Positions 7,455-23,968 of a DNA stretch of 32,695 bases are shown here, in pieces (the first letter of the stretch is position 1; each line of letters opens with the position of its first letter). The stretch comes from Gammaproteobacteria bacterium (GTDB lineage: Bacteria; Pseudomonadota; Gammaproteobacteria; Tethybacterales; Persebacteraceae), in contig JAHRAH010000120.1 in assembly GCA_020027345.1 (NCBI GenBank), positions 1-32,695 of the forward strand, written 5' to 3'. The position numbers were made by a program, and so were the translations under genes. Below the pieces are notes generated by a model, which ran no database searches, was not told the DNA's origin, and saw only the letters and a program-made list of their open reading frames with translations.

Positions 7455-7490
7455 CAGGGGCGGCGGGGGCGGCGTTTATGGCGAATGCGT

Positions 7491-7496
7491 TATAAT
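7491..7496 (+). promoter_or_regulatory. -10 box TATAAT, 9 nt before soeA-like ATG
   Basis: TATAAT-CCGCGGGGT-ATG(7506). Confidence 0.6.
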
Positions 7497-7505
7497 CCGC
7501 GGGGT

Positions 7506-10403
7506 ATGTCCGGCAAACTTCCCGCTTTTGAAAATCATTGCGCGCAGGAGACGCGGTTTACCACTTGCTACATGTGCGCCTGCCGCTGCGGCGTCAAGGT
7601 TACGCTGGAAGGCGGGCGCATACGCTTTATCCAGGGCAACCCCAACCACCCCGTCAACCGCGGCGTGCTTTGCGGCAAGGGCAACGCCGCCATTATGAAA
7701 CAGCAGTCGCCGGCGAAACTGCGCGCGCCGATGCTGCGCAAGCCCGGCAGCGAGCGCGGCGCCGGCGAGTTTTCCGAAATATCGTGGGAGGAAGCGCTGG
7801 ACATCCTCGCAAAAAAACTCGCCGCCATCCGCGCGAGCGACCCGGACAAACTCGCATTCTTCACCGGGCGCGACCAAATGCAGGCGCTCACCGGATTGTG
7901 GGCTTCGCAATTCGGCACGCTCAACTGGGCGGCGCACGGCGGTTTTTGCTCCGTCAATATGGCCGCGGCGGGGCTTTTGACGACCGGCTTTTCCTTTTGG
8001 GAATTCGGCGAACCCGACTGGGAGTTGGCGCGCTATTTCCTCCTCTGGGGCGTCGCCGAAGACCACGCCTCCAACCCGCTCAAAATAGGAATGAAAAAAC
8101 TCAAAGAGCGCGGCGCAAAAATAGTCGCCATAAACCCCGTGCGCACCGGTTATCAGGCGATTGCCGACGAATGGATTCCCGCGCGCCCGGGAACCGACGG
8201 CGTTTTGGCGATGGCGATGGCGCAAACTTTATTGCGCAGCCGGAAAATGGACGAGGAGTTTCTCGTCCGTTACACAAATATGCCGTGGCTGGTAATTCAA
8301 AATCCCGGCGGCGCGAATCACGGTTTGTTTGCGCGCGGCGAAAACGGCGGCCCCCTCGCGTGGGATTTGGAAAACGAAAAAACAATCGCCGCGAATCTCC
8401 CGCAAATCGCGCCGGCGCTTTTCGGCGAATACAAACTCGCAAACGGCGCGCGCGCAAAAACCGCGATGACGCTCTTCGCCGAGCGCGCGATGGAAACAAC
8501 ATACGCGCCAAAAAACGCCGCAAAGATTTGCGGAATACCCGCGGCGACCATTGAAAGAATTGCGGATGAAATGTCCGCCGCCGCTTTGGAAAATCCGCAA
8601 ACGATAAAAACGCAATGGACGGACTGTCACGGCGCAAAACATCAATCGTTCGCCGCGCGCGCGGTCGCGATGCACGCGATGCGCGGAATATCGGCGCATT
8701 CCAACGGCTTCCAAACCTGCCGCGCGATTCATTTTTTGCAGGCGCTGCTCGGCGCGATAGATGCGCCCGGTTCGCATTTGGCGAAGCCGCCTTACCCAAA
8801 AAACCCGCCGTGCAGTCCCCCGCCGGCAAAAACTTCCGCGCCCGGAAAACCCTTAAGCTGCGCGCCTTTGGGAATGCCCGCATCGCCCGCCGACCTCGTC
8901 GTAAACAAAAAAGGCGAGCCGCTGCGCATTGACAAAGCGTTTTCGTGGGACGCGCCCTTCGCCGCGCACGGGCTTTTGCATAATGTTCTCGCAAACGCCG
9001 CAAACGCCGACCCCTATCCCATAGACGCGCTGATGATTTTTATGGCGAACCTCGCGTGGAATTCCTCAATGGATTCCAAAGCCGCCGTTCGTTATCTCAC
9101 AAAAAAGCGCGGCGACGGTTACGCCATTCCTTTCGTCGTCGTTTGCGACGCCTTTCATTCCGAAACGGTAAACTACGCCGACCTCGTTTTGCCCGACACG
9201 ACATATTTGGAGCGGCACGATGTCATCTCGCTTTTGGACCGTCCGATTTCGGAAGCGCACGCGGTTTGCGATGCGGTGCGCGCGCCCGTTGTCCCCCCGC
9301 AACACAACACCCGTCCGTGGCAGGAAGTGCTTGTGGAACTCGGCGAGCGTTTGAAGTTTCCGATTTTTACCAAAGAAAACGGCGAACGAAAATACGACGG
9401 CTATCGCGACTTCATCGCGCGATGGGAAAAAACCCCCGGCGTCGGCTTTCTCGCCGGATGGCGCGGAAAGAACGGCGAAAAAACCGTAACCGGCGAGCCG
9501 AACCCCGGACAATGGAAACAATACGAGGAAAACGAATGCTTTTTCCGCGAAGAACTCCCGCCCGCCGCGCGGTATTTGCGCTTTGCCAACCGCGATTATT
9601 TGCGTTATGCAAAAAACGCCGGCTGGATTGCAAGCGAGGAGCAAATTGTTTTGCAGTTGTATTGCGAGCCGCTGCAAAAATTCCGATTGGCGGGCGAGGG
9701 TTTTGGCGACGCCGTCCCGCCGAAGGAATGTCAGCGCGAGCGTTTGCGCGAGCATTGCGACCCGCTCCCCTTTTGGTCGCCGCCGCTTTTGCATAAAACA
9801 AATGCGGGGGACAAAAAGGGGGGGCTCTTTTACGCCGTAACGCAGCGCCCGATGTTTATGTATCATTCGTGGGATTCGCAAAACGCGTGGCTGCGGCAGA
9901 TAGCCGACCGCAATCCGGTTTTCCTAAACGCCGCCCGCGCCGCCGAAGAAGGATTGCGCGACGGCGACTGGGTCTGGCTTTCCTCGCCTTTGGGGCGCGT
10001 CGCCGCCGCCGTAAAAACAATGGACGGCGTGCGCCCCGACACCGTCTGGACATGGAACGCAATCGCAAAAAACACTTCCGCCCCCGGCGCGTGGGGGCTT
10101 TCCGCCGATGCCGCCGAAGGCGCCGAGGGTTTTTTGATGAATCACATCATCCCCGAAATATTGCCGGAAAACGGCGAAGGAAAAACCGCCATAAACAACA
10201 GCGACCCGGTAACCGGCCAAGCGGCGTGGTACGACCTCCAAATCCAAATAACAAAAATGACCGACGCCGAACGCGAACAACAAATGCAAAAAACCGCCTC
10301 TCCGAAAAACCCGCCCCCCGAAGGCGAAAAACAATTGCGCTACGCCACCCACAAAGCCGTCCACCTGACCCGCCCCCTGCGCGATGTCCTGACGCGGAAA
10401 TAA
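7506..10403 (+). CDS. soeA: Molybdopterin oxidoreductase catalytic subunit, SoeA-like (DMSO reductase superfamily)
   Basis: 965 aa from ATG 7506; N-terminal CYMCACRCG...GVLCGKGN 4Fe-4S motif, molybdopterin oxidoreductase body and C-terminal molydopterin-binding segment; SoeB- and SoeC-like partners downstream. The soe versus dms/psr assignment is inferential. Confidence 0.75.
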   Translation: MSGKLPAFENHCAQETRFTTCYMCACRCGVKVTLEGGRIRFIQGNPNHPVNRGVLCGKGNAAIMKQQSPAKLRAPMLRKPGSERGAGEFSEISWEEALDILAKKLAAIRASDPDKLAFFTGRDQMQALTGLWASQFGTLNWAAHGGFCSVNMAAAGLLTTGFSFWEFGEPDWELARYFLLWGVAEDHASNPLKIGMKKLKERGAKIVAINPVRTGYQAIADEWIPARPGTDGVLAMAMAQTLLRSRKMDEEFLVRYTNMPWLVIQNPGGANHGLFARGENGGPLAWDLENEKTIAANLPQIAPALFGEYKLANGARAKTAMTLFAERAMETTYAPKNAAKICGIPAATIERIADEMSAAALENPQTIKTQWTDCHGAKHQSFAARAVAMHAMRGISAHSNGFQTCRAIHFLQALLGAIDAPGSHLAKPPYPKNPPCSPPPAKTSAPGKPLSCAPLGMPASPADLVVNKKGEPLRIDKAFSWDAPFAAHGLLHNVLANAANADPYPIDALMIFMANLAWNSSMDSKAAVRYLTKKRGDGYAIPFVVVCDAFHSETVNYADLVLPDTTYLERHDVISLLDRPISEAHAVCDAVRAPVVPPQHNTRPWQEVLVELGERLKFPIFTKENGERKYDGYRDFIARWEKTPGVGFLAGWRGKNGEKTVTGEPNPGQWKQYEENECFFREELPPAARYLRFANRDYLRYAKNAGWIASEEQIVLQLYCEPLQKFRLAGEGFGDAVPPKECQRERLREHCDPLPFWSPPLLHKTNAGDKKGGLFYAVTQRPMFMYHSWDSQNAWLRQIADRNPVFLNAARAAEEGLRDGDWVWLSSPLGRVAAAVKTMDGVRPDTVWTWNAIAKNTSAPGAWGLSADAAEGAEGFLMNHIIPEILPENGEGKTAINNSDPVTGQAAWYDLQIQITKMTDAEREQQMQKTASPKNPPPEGEKQLRYATHKAVHLTRPLRDVLTRK

Positions 10404-10426
10404 AAAGAACAACCCCCGTTTCCCGG

Positions 10427-10546
10427 CCGTCATTCCTGCGAAAGCAGGAATCCACCGCCGAACGCCAACGGCGTCGGCGGCTAATCCCCCGATGCATTGA
10501 CACCTTCGGCGTCAACGCTGGATTCCTGCTTTCGCAGGAATGACGG
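10427..10546. repeat. REPIN-like element: perfect 28-bp inverted arms around a 64-nt spacer
   Basis: CCGTCATTCCTGCGAAAGCAGGAATCCA (10427-10454) and its exact reverse complement TGGATTCCTGCTTTCGCAGGAATGACGG (10519-10546). Confidence 0.85.
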
Positions 10547-10623
10547 AATTGACGGCGTTATGTTATACTTCACCCCGTCCGCGCCTTATCACGCTGGCAC
10601 GGAAACCAAAAGGAAAAACAGCA

Positions 10624-11184
10624 ATGAAAAACATCAAACACCTGTTGCAAGAGCGCGCGCCGGAATTGTTGCGCGCCGAAATCAAACTCGTGCGGCATGT
10701 GATTAAAAATAAACGCAAATACCCGCCTGAATTGCGGACATTTGTCAGGAGTTCCAAAGCGAACTTTGCCGAATGGCAATGCGTGATTGGCAAAAAAAGC
10801 AACGGCAAACATTTGCGCAAGTGCGATCTTTTCGTGTCGTCTTGCGATTTGCCGGACGGGCGCGCATTGTTCACCGGCGTGTTCCGCAACGGTAGCGGCA
10901 ACTCGCCGCCCACGCTGGCACTCGGTGACCTGTCCCCGGCACTCGCGGACATTTACCGGGTGTTATACCGCCGGGAAAGGGCAAGGGGGCAAAAACCGGA
11001 TGAGCGCTATCTTTTCCAATTCCGAAAAGATTCGCGTTTTGCGGACTTGGAGCGGCGCGTCGTGATTGTGTGGGGGGCGGGCGCCCGCGCTTGGGTGCAG
11101 AATTTTGACTCCAATAATCCGAAGAGAATTTTGCCTGCTTTGGGCGAACCGCGTCCGATTTTTAACGAGGGTTACGACGATTGA
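10624..11184 (+). CDS. Hypothetical protein
   Basis: 186 aa from ATG 10624 with upstream GGAAAAA; no family recognised by eye. Confidence 0.6.
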   Translation: MKNIKHLLQERAPELLRAEIKLVRHVIKNKRKYPPELRTFVRSSKANFAEWQCVIGKKSNGKHLRKCDLFVSSCDLPDGRALFTGVFRNGSGNSPPTLALGDLSPALADIYRVLYRRERARGQKPDERYLFQFRKDSRFADLERRVVIVWGAGARAWVQNFDSNNPKRILPALGEPRPIFNEGYDD

Positions 11185-11194
11185 ACTCTGCCCC

Positions 11195-11268
11195 CGTCAT
11201 TCCCGCGAAAGCGGGAATCCATACAAACCCCGCGCCCTCTATGGATTCCCGCTTTCACGGGAATGACG
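11195..11268. repeat. REPIN-like element, 29-bp inverted arms with one mismatch
   Basis: CGTCATTCCCGCGAAAGCGGGAATCCATA (11195-11223) / TATGGATTCCCGCTTTCACGGGAATGACG (11240-11268). Confidence 0.85.
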
Positions 11269-11336
11269 AATTATGATACAATGTCAATCTGCGTCATACT
11301 GGAATGTGACGCCACGCAAATGAAAGGACGCCACAA

Positions 11337-11822
11337 ATGAACGAACCATTGAATTTTTCCCCCGCCAAAATTTTGGCGGGTATGCGCCCCCTTTCCATCA
11401 TCGCCGTTGGTCATGGTGTTGCCGCCCTGCTTTTCGCTTTGACGCCCGCCGCCGGCGCCGAGGAATATCAGTCGGAAACCGAAAGGCGGCTGGGAATCAT
11501 TAAGAAAAAGTGCGAAACAGGCGAACTTACGCACTGCCCGCACTTGGAAAAGAAACGGCCGCAAAACGGTGCGGATACCCCAAAACAAGTATCCCGGTCC
11601 TGCATTTCCGACGGCTTTCGCGGAATCAGGCCCCCGATTCGCGTGGAACGCGCAGTCAAGGAGGTTTTGGCAGACCCCGGCAGTTATGAGTTTGTCAGCG
11701 CCAGCCAAATAGGGCGCGACATTATCATTGTGTTTCGTGGCAGCAACGCCTACGGCGCAAAAGTTGTTGACCGTGCAGTTGTTACTACGGACGGTAACTG
11801 CAATCCGGTGTCGGTAAAATAA
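11337..11822 (+). CDS. Hypothetical secreted protein
   Basis: 161 aa; hydrophobic signal-peptide-like stretch ending ALTPAAGA-EE; upstream AAAGGA; stop lies 9 bp before soeB-like ORF. Confidence 0.65.
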   Translation: MNEPLNFSPAKILAGMRPLSIIAVGHGVAALLFALTPAAGAEEYQSETERRLGIIKKKCETGELTHCPHLEKKRPQNGADTPKQVSRSCISDGFRGIRPPIRVERAVKEVLADPGSYEFVSASQIGRDIIIVFRGSNAYGAKVVDRAVVTTDGNCNPVSVK

Positions 11823-11831
11823 AAACTGACG

Positions 11832-12545
11832 ATGAAACTCGGGCTCGTCATTGACTTGGACACTTGCGTCGGCTGCCATGCTTGCGCGACCGCTTGCAAG
11901 CAGTGGAACACATCGGGGGCGACGGGGCCGCTGACCGACGAACGCCCCTACGGGCGCGACCCGGAGGGCGTTTGGTTTAACCGGGTGCGCACTTTTGAAG
12001 CGGAGGATTCGCCGGAAACGCCGGGCGGGCGCGCCGTGCATTTTCCGATGTCGTGCATGCATTGCGAGGACGCCGACTGCGTGACCGTCTGCCCGACCGG
12101 CGCGTCTTACAAACGCGAAGAGGACGGCGTCGTTTTGGTGGACCAGGAAAAATGCATGGGATGCAATTTGTGCGCTTGGGCCTGCCCCTACGGCGCGCGC
12201 GAATTGGATTCCGCCGACGGCACGATGAAAAAATGCACGCTGTGCATAGACCGCATTTACGACGAAAACCTGCCGCCCGCGGAAAGGCAGCCGGCTTGCG
12301 TTTTGACATGCCCGACCAACTCGCGCGTGTTCGGCGATTTTGACGACCCCGATTCGCAAGTTTCCAAACTCACGCGCGAGCGCAACGGCGCCGGCTTGCT
12401 CCCCGAGCTCGGTTACAAACCGGTAAACCAATACCTCCCCCCCCGCAAACCCGCAAAAGCAACCCCCGCCCCCGCGCAAACGGAACCGCCCCCCGCCCAA
12501 GAATCCCCCCCCCGCAACTGGATAAACAAAATCATCCGGCGGTAA
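11832..12545 (+). CDS. soeB: 4Fe-4S ferredoxin-type electron transfer subunit, SoeB-like
   Basis: 237 aa; DLDTCVGCHACATACKQWNTSGATGPLTDERPYG, CMHCEDADCVTVCPTGASYKREEDGVVLVDQEKCMGCNLCAWACPYGARELD, KKCTLCIDRIYDENLPPAERQPACVLTCPT: four Cys clusters and SoeB-like spacing. Confidence 0.82.
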   Translation: MKLGLVIDLDTCVGCHACATACKQWNTSGATGPLTDERPYGRDPEGVWFNRVRTFEAEDSPETPGGRAVHFPMSCMHCEDADCVTVCPTGASYKREEDGVVLVDQEKCMGCNLCAWACPYGARELDSADGTMKKCTLCIDRIYDENLPPAERQPACVLTCPTNSRVFGDFDDPDSQVSKLTRERNGAGLLPELGYKPVNQYLPPRKPAKATPAPAQTEPPPAQESPPRNWINKIIRR

Positions 12546-12546
12546 G

Positions 12547-12666
12547 CGTCATTCCGGCGAAAGCCGGAATCCATACGGGCTTTGCTTTTGCCGACGGATT
12601 GCGGACGGCGGCGGATTTGGCTTTTTCTCCGGCCTTGTATGGATTCCAGCTTTCGCCGGAATGACG
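12547..12666. repeat. REPIN-like element, 30-bp inverted arms with one mismatch
   Basis: CGTCATTCCGGCGAAAGCCGGAATCCATAC (12547-12576) / GTATGGATTCCAGCTTTCGCCGGAATGACG (12637-12666). Confidence 0.85.
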
Positions 12667-12685
12667 GGGTGTTGATGGATTTAAT

Positions 12686-12777
12686 GGGCGTTCTCCACCC
12701 CCCCGGGGGTTTTTCGCCCCCCAAAGCCCCGTGGGGGCGGCCAAACTCCGACCCCCCCCCGCAAGCGGCGGGGGGTA
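12686..12777. repeat. Modular C-rich repeat copy 2, same ends, different palindromic core
   Basis: GGGCGTTCTCCACCCCCCC ... CTCCGACCCCCCCCCGCAAGCGGCGGGGGGTA; lies just before the mod promoter region. Confidence 0.8.
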
Positions 12778-12846
12778 TAGTAGGCGCAAACGGTGGTATC
12801 ATTAACTCATCCGCCCATGCAAAACGGCGGGCGGGGGAAACGAACG

Positions 12847-15393
12847 ATGGCAAAACGCAAGATTGAAAACTACCAGCATTCCGGCAAGGAGCGCCCGAAC
12901 AACCCGCCGGTGGGGCTGGTAACGCCGAAGACCGACGCCGACGCGGGCAAACAAAAATACGCCCACGACCCGCATCTGGACCCGCAACTGCAATGGGCGG
13001 GCAAGCGCGAAAACGCCGGGTTTGAAGTGCCGACGGTTTCGCTGCATGTCCACGAACGCATAGACCCGCGCACGATAATGGACGCCGTGCGCAAGCACAA
13101 CGGCGCCGGGCATTTGCAGGGCGCGCTTTTTGCCAAAGAGCGCAAAATCCCGCTGCGGCAGGAAATTGAGTTTTACCGCCATTCGCACAATTGGAGCAAC
13201 CGCCTCGTCGCCGGCGATTCCCTGCTGGTGATGAACTCCCTGCTGCAAAAAGAAAACATGGCGGGAAAAGTCCAGTGCGTTTATATGGACCCGCCTTACG
13301 GAATCAAATACGGCTCCAACTTTCAGCCCTTCGTCAACAGGCGCGAAGTCAAGGACGGCAAGGACGAGGATTTGACCGCCGAGCCGGAAACGATTAAGGC
13401 CTTCCGCGACACTTGGGAATTGGCGATACATTCCTATCTTTCCTATTTGCGCGACCGGCTTTTGCTGGCGCGCGAACTGCTGACGGACAGCGGCAGCGTT
13501 TTTTTGCAAATCGGCGACGAGAATGTGCATCGCGTTGGAATGGTGATGGACGATATTTTTGGAGCGGGAAACCGCGTGGCGACTATATCTTTCGCCACGA
13601 CCAGCGGCAGTTCCACCGCGCATTTGCCGCAAGTGGCGGATTATTTGTTGTGGTATGCCAAAGACAAAAAAACAATGAAATACCGTCAATTGTATGAACC
13701 GCTTTCGCGCGCGGAAATTGTGGAACATTTTAGTTCCTATGCAATGGTGGAATTACCCGATGGCAAGTGCCGCAAGTTGAGCGCGGAGGAAGTATTTTCT
13801 CCTGACAAATATTTGCCGGAAGGCGCGCGCCTTTACCGCCGCACAGGGCTTGATTCACAAGGCGTTTCCAAAACAGGTCGTTCCGAACCGTATAAATGGA
13901 ATGACAAAACTTTTCGTTGCTCGGAAAAGCGGCAATGGTCGGTGTCCAAAGAGGATATGGACCGTCTGGCGAAAATGGGACGGCTGGAAGCGATTGCAGG
14001 AAAAGAAAATTCCCTGATGTGGAAAAGATACGAAGATGAAGTTCCGGGGCGGCGCATCAATAATGTTTGGCCCGTGCAGATGTATCCGAGCGAAAAACGG
14101 TATGTCGTGGAAACTTCCACAAAGGCGATTCAGCGTTGTGTGCTAATGGCGACCGACCCGGGCGACCTTGTTTTTGACCCGACTTGCGGCAGCGGCACGA
14201 CTGCGGTTGTTTGCGAACAGTGGGGGCGGCGCTGGATAACCTGCGACACTTCGCGCGTCGCTTTGACTCTCGCGCGCCAGCGACTGATGACCGCTCATTT
14301 TGATTATTACAACCTCGCCTATCCGAAAGAGGGCGTCGGCAGCGGTTTTGTTTATAAAACCGTCCCCAAAGTGTCCGCCAAGATTCTGGCGGAGGGAAGA
14401 AACACTTACGAAACCCTTTACGACCAGCCGGAAAAGGACGCGAAAAGAGTGCGCGTAACGGGTCCATTTACTGTGGAAGCGGTGCCGGCGCCGACGGTAA
14501 AACCGTTGCGGGAAAGCGACGCGCCGCCGATGCCGGCCGACGATTCGGTCGCGCGCAGCGGCGAAACGCTGCGGCAAAAAGAATGGCGGGAAGAACTTTT
14601 TAAGACCGGCATTCTCGCCAAAGGCGGGCGCAAACTTTCGTTTTCGCGCGTGGAACCGCTGCCCGGCAACTGGCTGCACGCCGACGCCGAAACGGACGCC
14701 CAAGGGAACGACGGCAAACCGCTGCGCGCGGTTGTTTGCTTCGGCCCCGAACACGCGCCGATGGAACAGCGGCAAGTGGAAAACGCAATACAGGAATCGC
14801 AAACGCTGCTGCCGCGCCCGGGCATAGTCGTTTTCGCGGCTTTTCAGTTTGACCCCGAAGCGGCGAAGGACATAGACGAAACGCGCTGGGAGGGGATGAT
14901 TTTTCTCAAGGCGCAGATGAATCCCGACATGCAAACCGGCGATTTAAAAAAGAAAAGCGCGGGCAGCCAGAGTTTCTGGCTGGTGGGGCAGCCCGAAGTG
15001 GATGTTCGGCGGGTGCTTAAAGGCCCCGACAGCAACCGCTGGGAAGCGGAGGTTTACGGCTTTGATTACTTCAACACGCAAACCGGCGAAATGGAAAGCG
15101 GCAACGCCGAAGACATCGCCGTGTGGATGCTGGACACGGACTACGACGGGCGCTGCCTGTATCCGGCGCAGGTGTTCTTCCCGCTCGCGGGCGAAGGCGG
15201 CGGCTGGGCGAAACTGGCGCGCAACCTGCGGGGGGAAATTGACGAGGAACTGATAGAGGCATACCGGGGGACGGTGTCGCTGCCCTTTGACCTTGACAAA
15301 AACCGCCGGGTTGCGGTTAAAATAGCGGACAAGCGGGGGATAGAAAGCATCGCCGTGGTGCAAATCCGCCCGCCGGGAAAAATCGGCAAATGA
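12847..15393 (+). CDS. Type III-like R-M modification subunit, beta-class N6-adenine DNA methyltransferase (Mod)
   Basis: 848 aa from ATG 12847 (upstream GCGGGGGAAA); YMDPPYGIKYGSNFQPFV (motif IV) precedes VFDPTCGSGTTAVVCEQWGRRWITCDTSRVALTLARQR (motif I). Confidence 0.9.
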   Translation: MAKRKIENYQHSGKERPNNPPVGLVTPKTDADAGKQKYAHDPHLDPQLQWAGKRENAGFEVPTVSLHVHERIDPRTIMDAVRKHNGAGHLQGALFAKERKIPLRQEIEFYRHSHNWSNRLVAGDSLLVMNSLLQKENMAGKVQCVYMDPPYGIKYGSNFQPFVNRREVKDGKDEDLTAEPETIKAFRDTWELAIHSYLSYLRDRLLLARELLTDSGSVFLQIGDENVHRVGMVMDDIFGAGNRVATISFATTSGSSTAHLPQVADYLLWYAKDKKTMKYRQLYEPLSRAEIVEHFSSYAMVELPDGKCRKLSAEEVFSPDKYLPEGARLYRRTGLDSQGVSKTGRSEPYKWNDKTFRCSEKRQWSVSKEDMDRLAKMGRLEAIAGKENSLMWKRYEDEVPGRRINNVWPVQMYPSEKRYVVETSTKAIQRCVLMATDPGDLVFDPTCGSGTTAVVCEQWGRRWITCDTSRVALTLARQRLMTAHFDYYNLAYPKEGVGSGFVYKTVPKVSAKILAEGRNTYETLYDQPEKDAKRVRVTGPFTVEAVPAPTVKPLRESDAPPMPADDSVARSGETLRQKEWREELFKTGILAKGGRKLSFSRVEPLPGNWLHADAETDAQGNDGKPLRAVVCFGPEHAPMEQRQVENAIQESQTLLPRPGIVVFAAFQFDPEAAKDIDETRWEGMIFLKAQMNPDMQTGDLKKKSAGSQSFWLVGQPEVDVRRVLKGPDSNRWEAEVYGFDYFNTQTGEMESGNAEDIAVWMLDTDYDGRCLYPAQVFFPLAGEGGGWAKLARNLRGEIDEELIEAYRGTVSLPFDLDKNRRVAVKIADKRGIESIAVVQIRPPGKIGK

Positions 15394-16772
15394 TAACCAA
15401 ACTGACATTGGGGAATTTCCGCCTGTTTGACGAGCCGGTGACGGTTCGCTTCCGCCCGGTCACGGTGCTGATAGGGGGCAACAATTCGGGCAAGTCGTCC
15501 GTCATCAAGTTTCTGCTGATGCTGCAGCAGTCGCTGAGCCCGCTCTCGCCGGATTTTCTCAACCCGGAGGGGGAGCGGGTGAAGTTGGGGGAATTCAAAT
15601 CCCTGAAAAACACGCAGTCCAAAAAGGACATGCTGACTTTCGCGCTGGAATTGGAAACCGCGAAGGTTTCGCGCGGGGCGGAATTGATAATTGACGCGAT
15701 GGGAACGGGGAAAAAGCCCGAAGAGACCCCTCCGTTGCCCGAAGGAAAAATTGATTGGGATGTCAAAGCGCGGTTTTCTATTTCCGCCGCTGTTCCTTAC
15801 CTGAGGGCAAAAAAAGGCGAGCATACGGTGACTGCAACCAGCAGCAGCGGTTTTGTGCTTTTCCCGTTGCATCGGAAAATTAGGAGGCACTCGTCCGTGT
15901 TTATGGGGTTTACCCAATTGGCTGAAAAGGCCATGCTGGAACAATCCGGGAAAATGATAGATGATTTTTTAAAAAAGGTTGCCACGGCAACGGGCAACGC
16001 TGATTCTCTTCCGGGCGGCATTCTTTATCGCCCCGTCAAAGAAATGTACACCGAGGCGTATATTGAAGGTGCGCGAATGGAGATCATCGGAATGCGGCAT
16101 CTTGCCCCAACGCGCCAAACTTTCAGTCGCGTCATGGAATTGGCTTCGCCGCCGGAAGGAATTGTGGGATTTGACGGCAAACATGCGATGCCGCATCTGA
16201 AAAAAATCATGGATAATCGCGGGGGCGCGCAAACCGAGTTGGTTTCGCGTTACCTGAATCTGATTTGCGACATTGAAAAAATTCGGTTTAGCAAAACCGA
16301 TTATTTGTCGGATGCTTACATTAAAGTAACTGCCACCAACAGGCACACCCACGCCACCCACCACTTGCCGGACTTCGGCTTTGGCGTCAGCCAGGCCCTT
16401 CCGATTATCGTTCAGGGCGCGATTGCGCCGAAAGGCGCGCAGTTTATGGTTGAGCAGCCGGAGGCGCAATTGCATCCGACCGCGCAATTGGAATTGGGGA
16501 GTTTTTTCGCGGACATTTGGAAAAAATTCGGCGTGGGCTCAATTATAGAAACCCACAGCGACAACATTCTCCTGCGCCTGCGCCGCCTCGTTGCAAACGG
16601 CACTCTCAGCAAGGACGATGTCTCCGTCGCCTTTTTTGAAATTGACAAAAAAGGCAAGGCGACGGTAAAAAATCTTGACATAGAAGCGGACGGCTCAATG
16701 GATCCGGGCTTGCCGATGGAGTTTTTCCACGCCGACATCATTGAGGGATTGGAACTCGGAGTCGGCAAATGA
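15390..16772 (+). CDS. AAA/ABC-type ATPase, OLD-like without TOPRIM, DUF3696-like C-terminus
   Basis: 460 aa; ITKLTLGNFRLFDEPVTVRFRPVTVLIGGNNSGKSSVIKF (Walker A), QFMVEQPEAQLHPTAQLELGSFFADIW (Walker B), GSIIETHSDNILLRLRRLV. Start overlaps Mod stop (ATGA at 15390-15393). Confidence 0.85.
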   Translation: MITKLTLGNFRLFDEPVTVRFRPVTVLIGGNNSGKSSVIKFLLMLQQSLSPLSPDFLNPEGERVKLGEFKSLKNTQSKKDMLTFALELETAKVSRGAELIIDAMGTGKKPEETPPLPEGKIDWDVKARFSISAAVPYLRAKKGEHTVTATSSSGFVLFPLHRKIRRHSSVFMGFTQLAEKAMLEQSGKMIDDFLKKVATATGNADSLPGGILYRPVKEMYTEAYIEGARMEIIGMRHLAPTRQTFSRVMELASPPEGIVGFDGKHAMPHLKKIMDNRGGAQTELVSRYLNLICDIEKIRFSKTDYLSDAYIKVTATNRHTHATHHLPDFGFGVSQALPIIVQGAIAPKGAQFMVEQPEAQLHPTAQLELGSFFADIWKKFGVGSIIETHSDNILLRLRRLVANGTLSKDDVSVAFFEIDKKGKATVKNLDIEADGSMDPGLPMEFFHADIIEGLELGVGK

Positions 16773-17269
16773 CTTTTCTCCGCGACTGCGTCGCCATAGA
16801 CACGAATGTGTTTGAGCATCTTCTTAACCCGCAAGAAAACACTTGCGGGCACATCACCGTCCTGTTGACGGCGCTGGCCAAATGCGGCTCCGTCCTGATA
16901 GTCGACGAAAAGCAAGAAATTGAGAAAGAATACAATCACCGCTTGAAAAAATTAATTAAGGCGGCGCACAACAAAGACCAAAGGGTCGGGAGGTTGTTGA
17001 GATTTTGGATTCGGGCAAAGCCCAAATCCAAGACGCGAATCGCCGTGAATTATAACGACGCGCTGATGACCGGCATCAAACGGATAATCCCCCGGAATTC
17101 CATTGACCGGATATTTGTTTATGTCGCGCTTCACAAGGATCGCGCGCTAATATCCAACGACCACTGGGACATCATCGGCGAAAAAAAGAATCTGTTGCGC
17201 CTCAGAAAAGGCGCGAATTCTGCTATCCTTACTTCCGGGGAAGCCGCCGCCTGTTTGCAAAAACAATGA
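16769..17269 (+). CDS. PIN-like domain nuclease
   Basis: 166 aa; acidic PIN pattern D11 (AIDTNVF), E50-54 region (EKQEIEKEY), D113 (SIDRIFVYVAL), D131/D134 (LISNDHWDI). Start overlaps ATPase stop (ATGA 16769-16772). Confidence 0.7.
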   Translation: MTFLRDCVAIDTNVFEHLLNPQENTCGHITVLLTALAKCGSVLIVDEKQEIEKEYNHRLKKLIKAAHNKDQRVGRLLRFWIRAKPKSKTRIAVNYNDALMTGIKRIIPRNSIDRIFVYVALHKDRALISNDHWDIIGEKKNLLRLRKGANSAILTSGEAAACLQKQ

Positions 17270-20001
17270 CCGAGAAGCCGGACAGTTTGATTATCAACTC
17301 GCCCTACGGCGAGCCGGCGGAGCATTGGCGGGCGGTGGAGGGCGCGGAATCGCTGGCGCGCGAGCCGGGGCGCAGGTCGGCGGGGTATATGACCGCCGAC
17401 CCGAAAGCGAAGCCGCATCAGGACGGCGGGATATTCGTCCCCCTGCCGCTGGTCAATCAAATCCGCGGGCGCGTCGGCAAATGGCGCGGCGAGGGCTACC
17501 CCGGCGTTACCGGCGCGACCAAAACGCTTTTGGAATACTGGTGCGACAAAGAGCAGCGGGAATTCCCTTTTTTCTTTTGCCAGATGGATGCGATTGAAAC
17601 GCTGATATGGCTTGTTGAAGCGCCGGACGCCGGAAAAACCGGCGCCGGCATTCCCTCCGACGGCGGCGCCTTCCGGCGGCTTTGTTGCAAACTGGCCACC
17701 GGCACCGGCAAAACCGTCGTGATGGCGATGCTCGCCGCGTGGCAAATCATAAACAAAGCCGCAAACCCGCAGGACGCGCGGTTTTCCAAAAACATTCTTG
17801 TCGTCGCCCCCGGACTGACGGTAAAAGACCGGCTGCAGGTTTTGCTTCCTTCGGGCGGCGGCTATTACGACGAATTCGGCGTCGTCCCCCCCTCTTTCGC
17901 CGACAAACTGCGGCAGGGAAAAATAGTCATACTTAACTGGCACGCGCTCGCATGGGAAAGCGAAGAAAAAATCAAAAACAAAAAAGGCGCGGACAAGCGC
18001 GGCGCAAAAAGCGACGACGCATGGTTGCGCGACACGCTCGGCGAAATGTCCGCCGCGCGCGGCCTCGCCGTCATAAACGACGAGGCGCATCACGCATGGC
18101 GCGTTTCGGCGAAAACAAAAGGCGCGAAAAAGGACGAGGTTGACCGGGCGACAAAATGGATAGGCGGGCTGGACCGCATCCACCGCGCGCGCGGCGTTTT
18201 GAATTGTTTTGATTTTTCGGCGACGCCGTTTGTTCCGGGCGGGAAAAAAGCCGCCGAGGAAGGTTTGTTCGGCTGGATTGTCAGCGACTTCGGGCTGAAC
18301 GACGCGATTGAATCCGGGCTGGTTAAAACCCCGCGCATCGTCGTGCGCGACGACGCCCCGCCCGACGCCAAAACCTACAAGCCGCGCCTTTACCACATCT
18401 ACAACGATTCGGAAGTGAAGGACGACCTGAACCGCAAAGCGGGGGCAAAAGAACCGCTGCCGGCTTTGGTAACCGCCGCCTACACCCTGCTGGGCTGGGA
18501 CTGGGAAAAGACAAAAAAAGAATGGAAAAAGCGGAACGCGCAAACGCCGCCGGTGATGATTAGCGTGGTAAACCGCATTGAAACGGCGGACCGCGTAAAA
18601 TTCATGTTTGACCGCAAAGCGGTGGAAGTTCCCGCGCTGTGCGAGCGCGAAGGCATTTTGCAGATAGACACCAAAACTCTTAAAACCGCGGAAACCCCCG
18701 GCGGCGGCGCGGAAACAAAAACCGGCAAACAATCCGCGGAAACATTGCGGGGGCAACTCAACACCGTGGGGCAGCCGGAAAAATCCGGGCAAAACATCCA
18801 AAATGTAATATCCGTGGAAATGCTTTCCGAAGGATGGGACGCGCGCACGGTCACGCATATTATGGGGTTGCGCGCGTTTTCCAGCCAACTGCTTTGCGAA
18901 CAAGTTATCGGGCGCGGATTGCGGCGCGCGTCCTACGATGTCAACGAACAAACCGGAATGTTTGAGCCCGAATATGTGAATGTGTTCGGCGTGCCGTTCA
19001 GTTTTCTGCCGCACGAAAAAGAAGCGGATTCCCCGCCGCCGCCGCCGCCGAAAAAGACGGTGATGCCGGACCCCGCAAAAAGCGAATTTGCGCTGACTTG
19101 GCCGAACATTGTCCGCATAGAACGCTCGTTCAACCCGGCGCTCGCTCTCAACGCAAAAAAAGCCGCGCCGCTGACGCTGAACGCTTCGGAAACTCCGCAA
19201 CTTGCGGAAGTCGCCCCGTCCGTCGGCGGCAAGCCCGACCTTTCGCGAATAACCGACATCAATCTGGAAGAATTGCGGAAAAAACAGCGCCGGCAGCAGG
19301 TCGTTTTCCGCGCGGCGAGCGACATTTGGCATCAGATGAAACCCGGCTGGAAGGGTTCGCCGCAGGCGTTGATGGCGCAGATTGCCGGCATCACCGAAGA
19401 TTTTATCGCGTCCGGGCGCATTACGGTGACACCCGCCCTCTTTAACGAAGGCAAAAACAAATTGCTGGTCATCACGCTCAATATGTCCAAAGTCGTTCAG
19501 CATATTTGGCATGCGATTGAATTCGCCAACACCGAAACACTGCGCCCGGTTTTTGACGACGCCCGCCCCGTCCGTTCCACCGCGGACATGCGCCCGTGGA
19601 GAACCGGAAAACCCTGCGAACACGCGCGCCGCAGCCACATTAATTTGTGCGTTTACGACAGCGCGTGGGAAGCGTCCGAAGCGCACGAACTGGACAAAAA
19701 CAAGGATGTCGCGGCGTGGGCAAAAAACGACCATCTCGGTTTTGAAGTAGTTTATATTCACGCCGGCGCGGTTAGAAAATACCGCCCCGATTTTATCGTC
19801 CGGCTGCGCGGCGGCGAAATGCTGGCGCTGGAAGTCAAGGGGCAGGAAAGCGAACAGGACCGGGCAAAACGCCGCTTTCTGAAAGAATGGGCGAAAGCGG
19901 CAAACAACCACGGCGGATTCGGCCGCTGGTCGGTCGCCGTTTCCAAAACGCCCGGCGACATAAAAGATATTATCGCCCGGTGCGCGCGCCCGCAACGGTG
20001 A
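17266..20001 (+). CDS. Type III-like restriction subunit Res: SF2 helicase plus PD-(D/E)XK nuclease
   Basis: 911 aa; LATGTGKTVVMAML (Walker A), VINDEAHHAWR (DEAH), DFSATPF, SVEMLSEGWDARTVTHIMGLR...QVIGRGLRR, C-terminal YRPDFIVRLRGGEMLALEVKG (PD...EVK). Start overlaps PIN ORF stop (ATGA 17266-17269). Confidence 0.92.
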   Translation: MTEKPDSLIINSPYGEPAEHWRAVEGAESLAREPGRRSAGYMTADPKAKPHQDGGIFVPLPLVNQIRGRVGKWRGEGYPGVTGATKTLLEYWCDKEQREFPFFFCQMDAIETLIWLVEAPDAGKTGAGIPSDGGAFRRLCCKLATGTGKTVVMAMLAAWQIINKAANPQDARFSKNILVVAPGLTVKDRLQVLLPSGGGYYDEFGVVPPSFADKLRQGKIVILNWHALAWESEEKIKNKKGADKRGAKSDDAWLRDTLGEMSAARGLAVINDEAHHAWRVSAKTKGAKKDEVDRATKWIGGLDRIHRARGVLNCFDFSATPFVPGGKKAAEEGLFGWIVSDFGLNDAIESGLVKTPRIVVRDDAPPDAKTYKPRLYHIYNDSEVKDDLNRKAGAKEPLPALVTAAYTLLGWDWEKTKKEWKKRNAQTPPVMISVVNRIETADRVKFMFDRKAVEVPALCEREGILQIDTKTLKTAETPGGGAETKTGKQSAETLRGQLNTVGQPEKSGQNIQNVISVEMLSEGWDARTVTHIMGLRAFSSQLLCEQVIGRGLRRASYDVNEQTGMFEPEYVNVFGVPFSFLPHEKEADSPPPPPPKKTVMPDPAKSEFALTWPNIVRIERSFNPALALNAKKAAPLTLNASETPQLAEVAPSVGGKPDLSRITDINLEELRKKQRRQQVVFRAASDIWHQMKPGWKGSPQALMAQIAGITEDFIASGRITVTPALFNEGKNKLLVITLNMSKVVQHIWHAIEFANTETLRPVFDDARPVRSTADMRPWRTGKPCEHARRSHINLCVYDSAWEASEAHELDKNKDVAAWAKNDHLGFEVVYIHAGAVRKYRPDFIVRLRGGEMLALEVKGQESEQDRAKRRFLKEWAKAANNHGGFGRWSVAVSKTPGDIKDIIARCARPQR

Positions 20002-20047
20002 CGCCGCATTCGGCGGACGATTAATTATTGCCGCGGCTGCTTGCGCT

Positions 20048-20677
20048 TTGCTGGAAAACACAATTCAATTTGCCGTTGTTGCTTTTGCGCTGGTGGTTTC
20101 GCCGGGGCCGGACACGATGGTTATTTTGCGCCACAGCGTCGGCGGGGGCGGGCGGCGGGCGGGGTTTTTTGCCGTTCTCGGGGTGCAGGCGGGGCTGGTC
20201 GGGCATATTATTCTGGTTGTTTCCGGGCTTAGTTTAATTGTCGCCGCCGACGCGCGGCTTTTGCGCGCGCTCGCATTTGCCGGCAGCGCGTATTTGGCGT
20301 GGCTGGCGGCGGGGATTGTCCGCTCGCCCATCGCCGTCGCCGGCGCAAACTCCGAAATTGCGGCGCGCGCCGGCGAACCGTTCCGGCAGGGATTGTTTTC
20401 CAATCTTTTAAATCCGAAGGTGATATTTTTGTTCGTCGGGCTGATGCCGAACTTCGCCGGCGCAAAAAGCGCGCCGCCGGAATTGCAATTCGCCGTTTTG
20501 GGCGCGACGCTCATCGTCATCAACACGATGTATCAAAGCGCGCTCGCGGCCTTCGCCGATTCCGTCCGCCGCTTTCTTTCCGACGACGCGAAGCAAAAAA
20601 CGGCGCGCTGGATTTTGGGCGGCGCGCTATTTTTTTTCGCCGCCGTGCTTTTTGTGGAAAATGTTTTGGAAAAATGA
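20048..20677 (+). CDS. LysE/RhtB family translocator
   Basis: 209 aa, TTG start; ALVVSPGPDTMVILRHSVGGGGRRAGFFAVLGVQAGL and NLLNPKVIFLFVGLMPNF are LysE-family signatures. Confidence 0.85.
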   Translation: MLENTIQFAVVAFALVVSPGPDTMVILRHSVGGGGRRAGFFAVLGVQAGLVGHIILVVSGLSLIVAADARLLRALAFAGSAYLAWLAAGIVRSPIAVAGANSEIAARAGEPFRQGLFSNLLNPKVIFLFVGLMPNFAGAKSAPPELQFAVLGATLIVINTMYQSALAAFADSVRRFLSDDAKQKTARWILGGALFFFAAVLFVENVLEK

Positions 20678-20715
20678 ACTTCGCCGTTTTGCGCGGTAGA
20701 ATTGCGGCGCATTGA

Positions 20716-21633
20716 ATGAAGCCCGCGCTTTCCATCGTTGTTTTCACCGTGCTTTCCGGCGCCGGGCTGGGGCTGGCGGCGGCGCTCGCTTTTTTCGGCG
20801 GCGGCGACGCGCTTTTTTGGCGCGCGGCGGCGCTTTCGGTTTTGCTCACCGGCGGCGGCTTGCTGGCGAGCGTTTGGCATTTGGCAAACCCCAAAAACGC
20901 GTGGCGCGCGGTGATGCGCCTGCGCTCGTCGTGGCTTTCGCGCGAGGCGGTTTTGGCTTTTTTGTTTTTTGCGCTGACGGCGCTTTGGGCATTGCATCGT
21001 TACCGCAACGGCGGCGGCGGAATCGGCGGCGCGGTTTTGCCCGCGGCGGCGGGGTTTTGCGCGCTGGCGACGGTGTTTTGCACTGCGATGATTTATCAAT
21101 CGCTGAAACCGATAGCGGCGTGGAATCATCCGTTGACATCCATTAATTATCTCGCCCTTTCGCTGACGAGCGGAGCGGCGCTTTTTGCCGCGCTTTCCGG
21201 CGGGCGCGGCGCGGCTTTTGCGGCGGTTGTTTTTGCGGCGACATCCGCAGTCGGAAAATTAATGCATTACCGCCGCATCGGAAAAGCGAAAGGAATCCGC
21301 ATAGGCCGCGCGGCGGGCTTTTCGCGCGCGAAGGCGAAACTGCTGGAAGCCGGACATACGGGGCCGACTTTTCTCACGCGCGAATTTATATTTGACGCGC
21401 CCGCGGATTTGCTGCGGCGGTTGCGAATTGCCGCGATGCTTTTGTGTTTTGCCCCACCGGTCGCCGGCGCCTGCGCGATATTATTTGCAAAAGCCGCGCC
21501 GTCCCCGTTCGCGGAAACAGTAATGGCGGCGTCCATCCCCCCGATGTTTTGCGGCTTGTTATGCGAGCGCTGGCTGTTCTTCGCCGAAGCCCGCCACGCC
21601 GTCCGCGCCTACCACGGCGACGGCGCGCCGTAA
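20716..21633 (+). CDS. soeC: DmsC/SoeC-like membrane anchor subunit
   Basis: 305 aa; MKPALSIVVFTVLSGAGLGLAAAL, SVWHLANPKNAWRAVMRLRSSWLSREAVLAFLFF and multiple TM segments match DmsC-type anchors. Confidence 0.8.
   Translation: MKPALSIVVFTVLSGAGLGLAAALAFFGGGDALFWRAAALSVLLTGGGLLASVWHLANPKNAWRAVMRLRSSWLSREAVLAFLFFALTALWALHRYRNGGGGIGGAVLPAAAGFCALATVFCTAMIYQSLKPIAAWNHPLTSINYLALSLTSGAALFAALSGGRGAAFAAVVFAATSAVGKLMHYRRIGKAKGIRIGRAAGFSRAKAKLLEAGHTGPTFLTREFIFDAPADLLRRLRIAAMLLCFAPPVAGACAILFAKAAPSPFAETVMAASIPPMFCGLLCERWLFFAEARHAVRAYHGDGAP
21543..21606 (+). repeat. Direct repeat soeC-3' left copy (within the soeC coding end)
   Basis: 64-bp segment encoding MFCGLLCERWLFFAEARHAVR; partner at 22306-22369. 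Confidence 0.8.
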
Positions 21634-21645
21634 ACGGCGCGGGCG

Positions 21646-22278
21646 TTACGCTTTTTTCCGGTGCGACAAATCCAAAGGCAACGATGCGCGGCGGGCAACC
21701 GGCGGATGACCGGGTTCGGACTCTTCCACAAAAGTGACCGACTCGTAAAAATCGTCCAGCGCGACAAAGACGCCGTTTTCTTCCGCCCACTTTCGCATGC
21801 GCAGGTTGCAGGAATACTCCCACGAAAGAACTTCTATGCGCCAGCCGCGCTTGTGCATCCGTTCCAGCGCGCAGTGAAATCCCTTGCCGGGACCTTCGTA
21901 ATATCCTTTGCCGTCGCCGGTGAGTAGCACGACGATGCCCGGGTCGCCGTTGTTGTCCAGCGCGTCCTCCATCATTTCCAACTGCAAAAAGCGGTCGGGG
22001 ACTTCCTGCTCGCCGCGCAGGGAACGCTCGCGGTCGTAGAGTTCCACCTTCACGCCCTTGCTGCGCAGGTTGCTCCAAAGCCGGCGCAACTGCGGCGGCA
22101 CCGAACCGGTCGCCAGCGCCTTTGCCACCGCACGGTCGGCGTGGGCCAGACGGTACATGTTTTCAAAATTGACGCGCAAACGGTAACTGGCGTCCGGGCT
22201 GCCCTCGCGCTCGTCCGCCAGCCCCTGCGCCCCGATAAAAATGTTGGAGTTGTCCCAGTAAACGAAAATCTTGTCCAT
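21646..22278 (-). CDS. NYN domain (LabA/DUF88-like) predicted RNase
   Basis: 210 aa from ATG at 22278; MDKIFVYWDNSNIFIGAQG, DPGIVVLLTGDGKGYYEGPGKGF, WEYSCNLRMRKWAEENGVFVALDDFYESVTF. The longer track ORF start is rejected because TATAAT lies 7 nt upstream of this ATG. Confidence 0.85.
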   Translation of the reverse strand: MDKIFVYWDNSNIFIGAQGLADEREGSPDASYRLRVNFENMYRLAHADRAVAKALATGSVPPQLRRLWSNLRSKGVKVELYDRERSLRGEQEVPDRFLQLEMMEDALDNNGDPGIVVLLTGDGKGYYEGPGKGFHCALERMHKRGWRIEVLSWEYSCNLRMRKWAEENGVFVALDDFYESVTFVEESEPGHPPVARRASLPLDLSHRKKA

Positions 22279-22285
22279 ACGGTTG

Positions 22286-22291
22286 ATTATA
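22286..22291 (-). promoter_or_regulatory. -10 box TATAAT, 7 nt before NYN ATG
   Basis: Minus strand TATAAT-CAACCGT-ATG(22278). Confidence 0.6.
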
Positions 22292-22305
22292 ACACGATAA
22301 CGCCT

Positions 22306-22369
22306 GATGCTTTGCGGACTTCTGTGCGAGCGCTGGCTATCCTTTGCCGAGTCCTGCCGCGCCGTCCGC
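22306..22369 (+). repeat. Direct repeat soeC-3' right copy (orphan fragment)
   Basis: Encodes MLCGLLCERWLSFAESCRAVR in the same sense; I count 13 mismatches in 64 bp against 21543-21606. Confidence 0.8.
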
Positions 22370-22385
22370 ATACCTGTTACCGTTT

Positions 22386-22416
22386 TTGATACAAAAAGAG
22401 CGGAATTTGTTATAAT
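22386..22416 (+). promoter_or_regulatory. Sigma70-like promoter of the DUF2130 gene (TTGATA-N19-TATAAT)
   Basis: TTGATA 22386-22391, TATAAT 22411-22416; leader about 18-20 nt with SD. Confidence 0.65.
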
Positions 22417-22441
22417 AGAGTCACAATCGGGAGAGCGCGAG

Positions 22442-23968
22442 ATGAAAAAAGAAGACCTGGTGACATGCCCCAAATGCGATAATGAGTTTCCGCTTGCCGA
22501 AGCGGTGAGGGGAGCGTTGCAGACGGAACGCGTTGCTTTGCGCGCGGAGATTGAACAAACAACACGCATGAGCGCGAAAGCGGAACGGGATGCGGCGGTT
22601 AAAGAAGCCCTCCGCGAGGTGGAGGAAAAAGCCGGCCGTGAAAAACAGGCGATGCAAGAGCGCCTTAAGCAATCCGACTTGACGGCCGAAAAAGCCAGTA
22701 AAGAGGCGGCCAAAGCCATTGAAGAACAGATGAGGGCGGAAAACGCTCTTAAAAAAGCGGAGGCGGAAACCGCCGAAAAAGCGAGCGTTATGGCGCAAAA
22801 ATATGTGAACGACGCCGTTCAGGCCGAAGTCCGAAAAGTGAAACTTGCCGCAGGGCGCGAAGTGCAGGCAATGCAAAATCGCCTGAATGACTCCGACAAG
22901 CGGGCAAATCAGGCCCGGGAAGATGCGAACGAAGCCATCAGGAAAAAGACGGAACTGGTCACTCGCATTAAAAGCATGCCCGCGGAAGTTGCTGAAAAGG
23001 CGGAGACGCTTGCGAAGCAACAAGTGGAAGGCGCCGTTAAAAGCGCGGTACAGGAAACGGAAGCAACCATGCGCCGGGAACACAATGCGACGGTTGCCGC
23101 GCTTAGGGCCGCGAAAGAAAGTGCAACGAAACGCGCAGAAGAACGCGAGAGTCAAATCCGCGCGGAAGAGGCGGACAAACAGCAATTGACGATTGCGACC
23201 AAAGAAAAAACAATTGGCGATTTGCGCCGGGAATTGGCGTTGCTGCAAAGCAAAGCCACTCCCGCACATCCGGAGTCGGAGGGCGAAGTACTCGAACAAA
23301 TCGTCCAAAGCAAATTGGAAAGGTCGTTTGTCATTGACGGGGTTCAACCCATTCCCAAAGGCGTGGCTGGGGCTGACATTTTGCAGGAGGTGCGCGATGA
23401 CAGCGCCCGTTTTTGCGGCCGCATTTTGTGGGAAGTTAAAAACGCCAAGTTGTGGCAAAAAGCATGGTTGGGAAAATTAAAAAATGACCAGCAAAAAGCG
23501 GAAGCTGACATTGCTGTGATTGTTTCTGATGCTCTTCCCCCGGAAGCGGAAGGCACCGGCTTCGCGCTCGCCAATAATGGCGTCTGGATAACCGGGAAAA
23601 AAGGGGTTATTCCTCTGGCCACTGCGTTGCGCGTCCAATTAAAGGAGGTGTCGGACGCCCGCGCCTATTCCGTGGGCAAAGAAGAAAAGATGGACATGCT
23701 GTACAAGTATTTGACCGGGCCCCAATTTAAGCGGCTGGTTGAATCCATTGGCAGCGCCTACGAGGAGATGAAAGTCCAATTGGAAAAAGAGCGCGCTCAA
23801 ATGGGCAAACACTGGGCAACGCGCGAAAAACATCTGAATCGCGTGCTTGAAGGCATGGCCACCATGCGCGGGGACTTTGAAGGCATCGTCGGAAAGCAAC
23901 CCGCGCTTGACATGTTGGGAGATGAGGTTTTGGGAATAGACAACGATGAGGGCGGGGAAGATAAATAA
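22442..23968 (+). CDS. DUF2130 domain protein (Zn-ribbon, coiled coil, C-terminal nuclease-like domain)
   Basis: 508 aa from ATG 22442 (SD GGGAGAG); CPKCDNEFP N-terminus, long K/E/A coiled coil, IVQSKLERSFVIDGVQPIPKGVAGADILQEV...GRILWEVKNAKLWQKAWLGKLKNDQ. Confidence 0.85.
   Translation: MKKEDLVTCPKCDNEFPLAEAVRGALQTERVALRAEIEQTTRMSAKAERDAAVKEALREVEEKAGREKQAMQERLKQSDLTAEKASKEAAKAIEEQMRAENALKKAEAETAEKASVMAQKYVNDAVQAEVRKVKLAAGREVQAMQNRLNDSDKRANQAREDANEAIRKKTELVTRIKSMPAEVAEKAETLAKQQVEGAVKSAVQETEATMRREHNATVAALRAAKESATKRAEERESQIRAEEADKQQLTIATKEKTIGDLRRELALLQSKATPAHPESEGEVLEQIVQSKLERSFVIDGVQPIPKGVAGADILQEVRDDSARFCGRILWEVKNAKLWQKAWLGKLKNDQQKAEADIAVIVSDALPPEAEGTGFALANNGVWITGKKGVIPLATALRVQLKEVSDARAYSVGKEEKMDMLYKYLTGPQFKRLVESIGSAYEEMKVQLEKERAQMGKHWATREKHLNRVLEGMATMRGDFEGIVGKQPALDMLGDEVLGIDNDEGGEDK

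Follow-up and report, generated by a model that had tools for sequence, protein, structure and literature searches.

A type III-like restriction-modification operon with a candidate ATPase-PIN nuclease abortive-infection module between mod and res

Four consecutive genes on the forward strand of the window (the whole stretch of 32,695 nucleotides analyzed here, from a draft assembly of 2.36 Mb that is 86.5% complete) are best read, with a probability of roughly 0.55, as a BPTD_3080-type restriction-modification (R-M) operon that carries, between mod and res, a two-gene abortive-infection module in which an ATPase would gate a PIN RNase. Comparison with related loci shows the ATPase-PIN pair to be an accessory module linked to restriction systems, not an R-M subunit.

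Results

The four open reading frames encode, in order, the methyltransferase Mod (12847..15393, 848 amino acids), an OLD/ABC-type ATPase (15390..16772, 460 amino acids), a small PIN-like protein (16769..17269, 166 amino acids) and Res (17266..20001, 911 amino acids), all on the plus strand. The ATG at 12847 is the most likely start of Mod; an in-frame GTG lies upstream, at 12793. The junction features described in the sequence-only reading are all present: the frames overlap by ATGA at 15390, 16769 and 17266 (the PIN/Res overlap being 17266..17269, plus strand), and the decamer CGGCAAATGA is found at the first two junctions (15384..15393 and 16763..16772, both on the plus strand). The same decamer occurs once more in the window, on the minus strand at 31918, the chance expectation for the window being 0.30, and two junctions have it because both upstream proteins end in Gly-Lys-stop; as evidence it carries little weight. 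These ends, together with the loss of the decamer in the orthologs, also rule it out as a regulatory signal. Overlaps of four bases are commonplace among bacterial operons. The triple ATGA is not found in the orthologous loci, in which the Mod-ATPase and PIN-Res junctions are spaced and, in most (9 of 11), the ATPase-PIN junction alone overlaps; since only this overlap is general, the tight packing is a property of the window's copy. The ATPase and PIN genes have a G+C content of 52.5% and 49.4%, as against 56.7% and 58.6% for mod and res.

Mod shows the motifs of N6/N4 DNA methyltransferases (DPPYG, DPTCGSGTT) arranged in the type III order, and matches Pfam PF01555 N6_N4_Mtase (4e-32) and PADLOC MTase_III (1.7e-154). 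Res combines a DEAH helicase with a C-terminal PD-(D/E)XK motif and passes the NCBIfam model NF046055 (BPTD_3080) with 1025.7 bits, the cut-off being 800. These matches place Res in the BPTD_3080 family of restriction endonucleases and make Mod a type III methylase, in agreement with the type III-like assignment made earlier.

The ATPase has a Walker A motif (GGNNSGKSS), a GFGVSQ signature, a Walker B motif (VEQPEAQLHP) and an ETHSDN switch, and its nucleotide-binding motifs are all conserved in eight orthologs. It matches AAA_15 (6.6e-22) and AAA_21 in Pfam, and no TOPRIM domain was found in any of the four cassette genes, so that the description of the protein as OLD-like and devoid of TOPRIM stands. 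Among PADLOC models the ranking is NsnB (which we take to be the Menshen ATPase; 2.3e-51), PDC-M55A (8e-45), HEC-03B (3.3e-35) and AriA (9e-24). The AlphaFold2 model of the ATPase (pLDDT 53) was too poor to judge interfaces and was left out of the fold search.

Taken alone, the window's 166-residue protein matched no family model in Pfam, PADLOC or NCBIfam, the PIN and HEC-03A models included. Its predicted active-site residues D11, E54, D113 and D131 do not vary among eight orthologs, and D11, E54, D113 and N130-D131 recur in all of seven orthologs, which come from Cyanobacteria, Chloroflexota and Nitrospirota. One ortholog (L071) passes the Pfam PIN model, with 25.1 bits against a threshold of 23.6, and another (L069) falls just under it, at 23.0. 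The AlphaFold2 model (pLDDT 81, pTM 0.79) has VapC toxins among its best Foldseek matches in the PDB, at probabilities of 0.94 to 1.00 and with weak E-values, the best being 3.7e-3. It is the orthologs and the structure model that identify the protein, from its acidic active site and predicted fold, as a PIN nuclease, and the earlier assignment is upheld by the invariant residues, the L071 score and the VapC-like model.

Seen from the ATPase, the cassette is conserved. Searching plasmids with the ATPase as query led to Planktothrix AP017994, which carries all four genes in the window's order (identities of 59% for Mod, 39% for the ATPase, 31% for the PIN protein and 57% for Res). Two peptide patterns of the ATPase, run against 85,462 species genomes, gave seven loci, of which five, all cyanobacterial, show the complete four-gene order. 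A further search with the ATPase, in 223 cyanobacterial genomes and centred on known carriers, gave two more, both with the full cassette. The Mod-ATPase-PIN-Res order is thus found in Planktothrix, Oscillatoriales, Fortiea, Nostoc and further cyanobacteria; in a Chloroflexota MAG the series can be followed through Mod, ATPase and PIN into the first part of Res, where the contig ends. In a Nitrospira MAG (L075/L085) the pair lies upstream of Mod, with a multi-ubiquitin/E2/E1-JAB/DUF6527 operon in between, and on another contig this locus goes on as Mod-TIR-nucleotidyltransferase-DUF2806-Res. The ATPase-PIN pair, the ubiquitin-like operon, the TIR protein (CAP12) and the nucleotidyltransferase are stacked in this MAG round one type III Mod-Res (L075:10001-15301 and L085). 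Over all loci with this ATPase subfamily, the PIN gene comes directly after the ATPase gene in 11 of 11, Mod stands beside the pair in 11 of 11, and Res comes next wherever the contig allows. The pair therefore recurs with Mod/Res across phyla, which supports the sequence-only reading on this point, and its constant place beside R-M genes argues for a functional tie. A search of phages and IMG/VR contigs for the PIN protein or the ATPase found nothing.

A different picture emerges when the loci are approached through Res. The sample comprised all PLSDB plasmids and, among genomes, 399 from the window's phylum, 194 from Cyanobacteria, 198 from Nitrospirota and 251 from Chloroflexota; in it we read 16 non-reference loci in which Res is at least 45% identical and the Mod-Res junction is readable. 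The window's phylum is assumed to be Pseudomonadota, since G253, a genome of the same phylum, has the R. etli plasmid locus. In these samples, on which the counts of loci rest, the pair is missing from 15 of the 16, the sole carrier being the Planktothrix plasmid. Mod and Res abut, or nearly so, in Rhizobium etli, A. pusense, G740, G1004 and G870, among others; L120 has a 1-kb gap without the pair; and elsewhere the gap holds other cargo, namely DUF433 with Uma2, DUF4258, Bro-N or DUF2283, with Mrr_N and DUF1828 as cargo of more distant or partial loci. Because most close Mod-Res loci lack the pair and many have other cargo in its place, the pair is not intrinsic to the R-M system, nor is it needed for restriction, and the evidence does not support the earlier view of it as a built-in part. 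That reading had counted an only sporadic association with Mod/Res against itself, an objection that is half borne out: the association is sporadic seen from Res and constant seen from the ATPase. On a 28-taxon tree of Res, the distribution of the pair calls for three or more gains or losses, and a single gain with two losses would be one such history; the window's Res stands apart from the cyanobacterial clade, inside which L100 is without the pair.

Other observations concern the same slot and its surroundings. The same genome's second type III R-M system (L062:7005-13538, minus strand, G000:C155) has the order Mod, HEC-01A, HEC-01B, Res, the two inserted genes matching the HEC-01A ATPase (1.6e-123) and the DUF4276 protein HEC-01B (6e-44). 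At L064:7598-8425 (G218:C49) an ORF of 275 amino acids, KilA-N-like as judged by eye, lies between a type III Mod and Res. Directly after Res at L158:1450-4499 (G1149) there are TniQ, TniB and Mu-type transposase genes; this cassette abuts a Tn7/Tn5053-like element and may be cargo of that element. In the window, the cassette and a LysE gene have a molybdopterin oxidoreductase/FeS (DmsA/DmsB-like) pair on one side and a DmsC-like anchor gene on the other (7485-21633), as if inserted into a DMSO-reductase-type operon. Near the DmsC-like gene, on the minus strand, an ORF (21649-22719) matches the NYN domain, a PIN-like RNase fold. Long direct repeats round the cassette were looked for as an insertion footprint and none was found. 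Immediately 5' of mod lies an inverted repeat of GTCATTCCGGCGAAAGCCGGAATCCAT (12547-12666), which, when up to two mismatches are allowed, is present 343 times in the draft genome (2.36 Mb); many of the copies form inverted pairs with a spacing of about 90 bp. This REPIN-like sequence is a genome-wide element and was ruled out as a footprint.

Discussion

The idea of embedded ATPase-nuclease pairs is already known, and a related pair is catalogued in PADLOC as HEC-03 ("Hma-embedded candidate" 03; PIN-like HEC-03A and ATPase HEC-03B); for the exact four-gene form we found no name. As in HEC-03, an OLD-type ATPase is followed directly by a PIN protein of about 160-180 amino acids, and the HEC-03B model matches all eight ATPases, while HEC-03A matches four of the eight PIN orthologs (best 2.8e-5). 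Unlike in HEC-03, the window's PIN protein has no HEC-03A match, the ATPase scores better with NsnB and PDC-M55A, the host is a type III Mod-Res and not an Hma operon, and there is no RNA ligase gene 3' of the PIN gene. HEC-03A loci in the window's phylum have the ATPase, then at once the PIN protein and often an RNA ligase next, and in most of them our ATPase profile scores 120-150 bits. The ligase gene (PF09414) was seen after the pair in L142 and L143 and, by start sequence, in L139, L140 and L144-L147, which suggests repair or protection of PIN-cut RNA. Some HEC-03-like pairs sit in DUF499/DUF1156-methylase/helicase operons. Together, these neighbors point to RNA as the substrate and to modification systems as the hosts.

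Precedents are not limited to HEC-03. According to a 2026 survey, the backup effectors of BREX include OLD-ABC ATPases that have an HNH, REase or PIN nuclease as partner; the survey also notes that such coupling had been reported earlier for R-M-like systems (PMC12839542), so that the precedent claimed from the sequence for ATPase/nuclease pairs is sound. Our cassette shares with the BREX effectors an OLD-ABC ATPase and a PIN endoRNase in a modification-based defense operon, but its host is a BPTD_3080 type III Mod-Res. PARIS and PrrC are regarded as guardians of R-M (PMC12707154). The cassette resembles PARIS in its OLD-ABC ATPase and small nuclease, and in the proposed guarding of restriction systems, but AriB is a TOPRIM nuclease, the effector here is a PIN protein and AriA is not the best model for the ATPase; with a PIN effector and no TOPRIM in its four genes, the cassette cannot be classed with PARIS. 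With EcoPrrI-PrrC it has in common an ATPase-linked RNase embedded in an R-M operon; PrrC, in contrast, is a single protein with a HEPN nuclease and belongs to a type IC system, whereas ATPase and PIN are separate proteins here, in a type III system, and the cassette cannot be classed with PrrC. The HEC-01 locus described above also places an ATPase and a small effector between a type III Mod and Res, but the ATPase is another one and the effector is DUF4276, not PIN. Among other catalogued systems, Menshen, in which the NsnB ATPase has DUF262 and OLD-nuclease partners, was rejected although NsnB is the best ATPase match, because the cassette has no DUF262 or TOPRIM gene (PMC10952713). Septu was rejected because there is no HNH and the PtuA model gives 1e-4 and 21 bits against a cut-off of 500. 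PDC-M55 as catalogued was rejected as well: its B model (315 positions) is unmatched in the genome and two examples lack a Pfam domain, so that this B protein is not the PIN.

In the reading that we prefer, an R-M operon with an abortive-infection module, Mod would methylate self DNA and Res would cut unmethylated invading DNA after ATP-driven translocation, as expected from their families. The ATPase would form a complex with the PIN protein that keeps the nuclease inactive; once the ATPase senses an infection cue, it would release the nuclease, which would cut RNA, most likely tRNA or mRNA, and growth would stop before the phage could finish. The cue is the least certain step, and may be an anti-restriction protein, an inhibited or engaged R-M system or another phage factor. 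An RNA substrate is proposed because of the PIN family, the VapC-like structure and the RNA ligase neighbors of related pairs, and an abortive RNase action of the pair is likely. In this reading the pair is a separable addition to DNA-modification systems, which it would back up as PARIS (OLD-ABC and TOPRIM) does. A narrower proposal is that the pair is a dedicated OLD-ABC/PIN guard of the type III Mod-Res, which strictly needs the R-M system, while the converse is not the case, and which would kill or stall the cell when restriction is inhibited; we advance it only tentatively.

Linkage at a collecting site is the main rival to a functional tie. Since the slot takes unrelated cargo, adjacency alone is no proof of a functional link to R-M, and the pair could be a stand-alone defense module for which the Mod-Res gap is no more than a landing site and which senses phage regardless of R-M. 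The many unrelated gap cargos (TIR, MNT, Bro-N, Mrr_N, DUF4258, DUF433/Uma2 and DUF2283), the three or more changes on the Res tree and the relatives of the pair in other operons would all fit, but a module of this kind would be expected also as free-standing copies, and every one of the 11 ATPase loci, from several phyla, lies beside Mod. We hold this explanation to be rather unlikely. A wiring like that of PrrC, in which the Mod-Res complex itself holds the ATPase-PIN pair inactive until anti-restriction factors release it, seems improbable. The four-base overlaps of the window suggest coupled translation and EcoPrrI-PrrC is a precedent (PMC12707154, PMC3710099); yet the outer junctions are spaced in the orthologous loci, the Nitrospira pair is not within the Mod-Res unit, the ubiquitin-like operon standing between it and Mod, and related pairs reside with unrelated methylase systems. 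Because of the two latter arrangements, the ATPase is a likelier holder of the PIN protein than the R-M complex, and the cassette is not obviously a PrrC arrangement. Still less probable is a toxin-antitoxin pair, with PIN as toxin and the ATPase as antitoxin, that would make the R-M cassette hard to lose without sensing phage. PIN proteins are the classic VapC toxins, some slot cargos (DUF433, DUF4258) are toxin-antitoxin-like, and a DarT and a macro-domain gene lie directly after a Mod-Res of the same clade (L116:915-2643), but a VapB-like gene is absent from the cassette. To our knowledge, OLD-ABC ATPases are not antitoxins. Relatives of the PARIS type, moreover, act against phage (PMC12839542).

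Known restriction guards include PrrC, for type I R-M, and PARIS, for the sensing of Ocr. The present cassette, with the same gene order across phyla, is a conserved candidate for such a guard in type III systems, its effector being a PIN protein. Because the dependence is one-way, the pair being always found by R-M genes and the R-M genes mostly without the pair, the guard hypothesis is directly testable. Moreover, defense effectors seem to collect in the Mod-Res gap of this clade, which could be mined for more.
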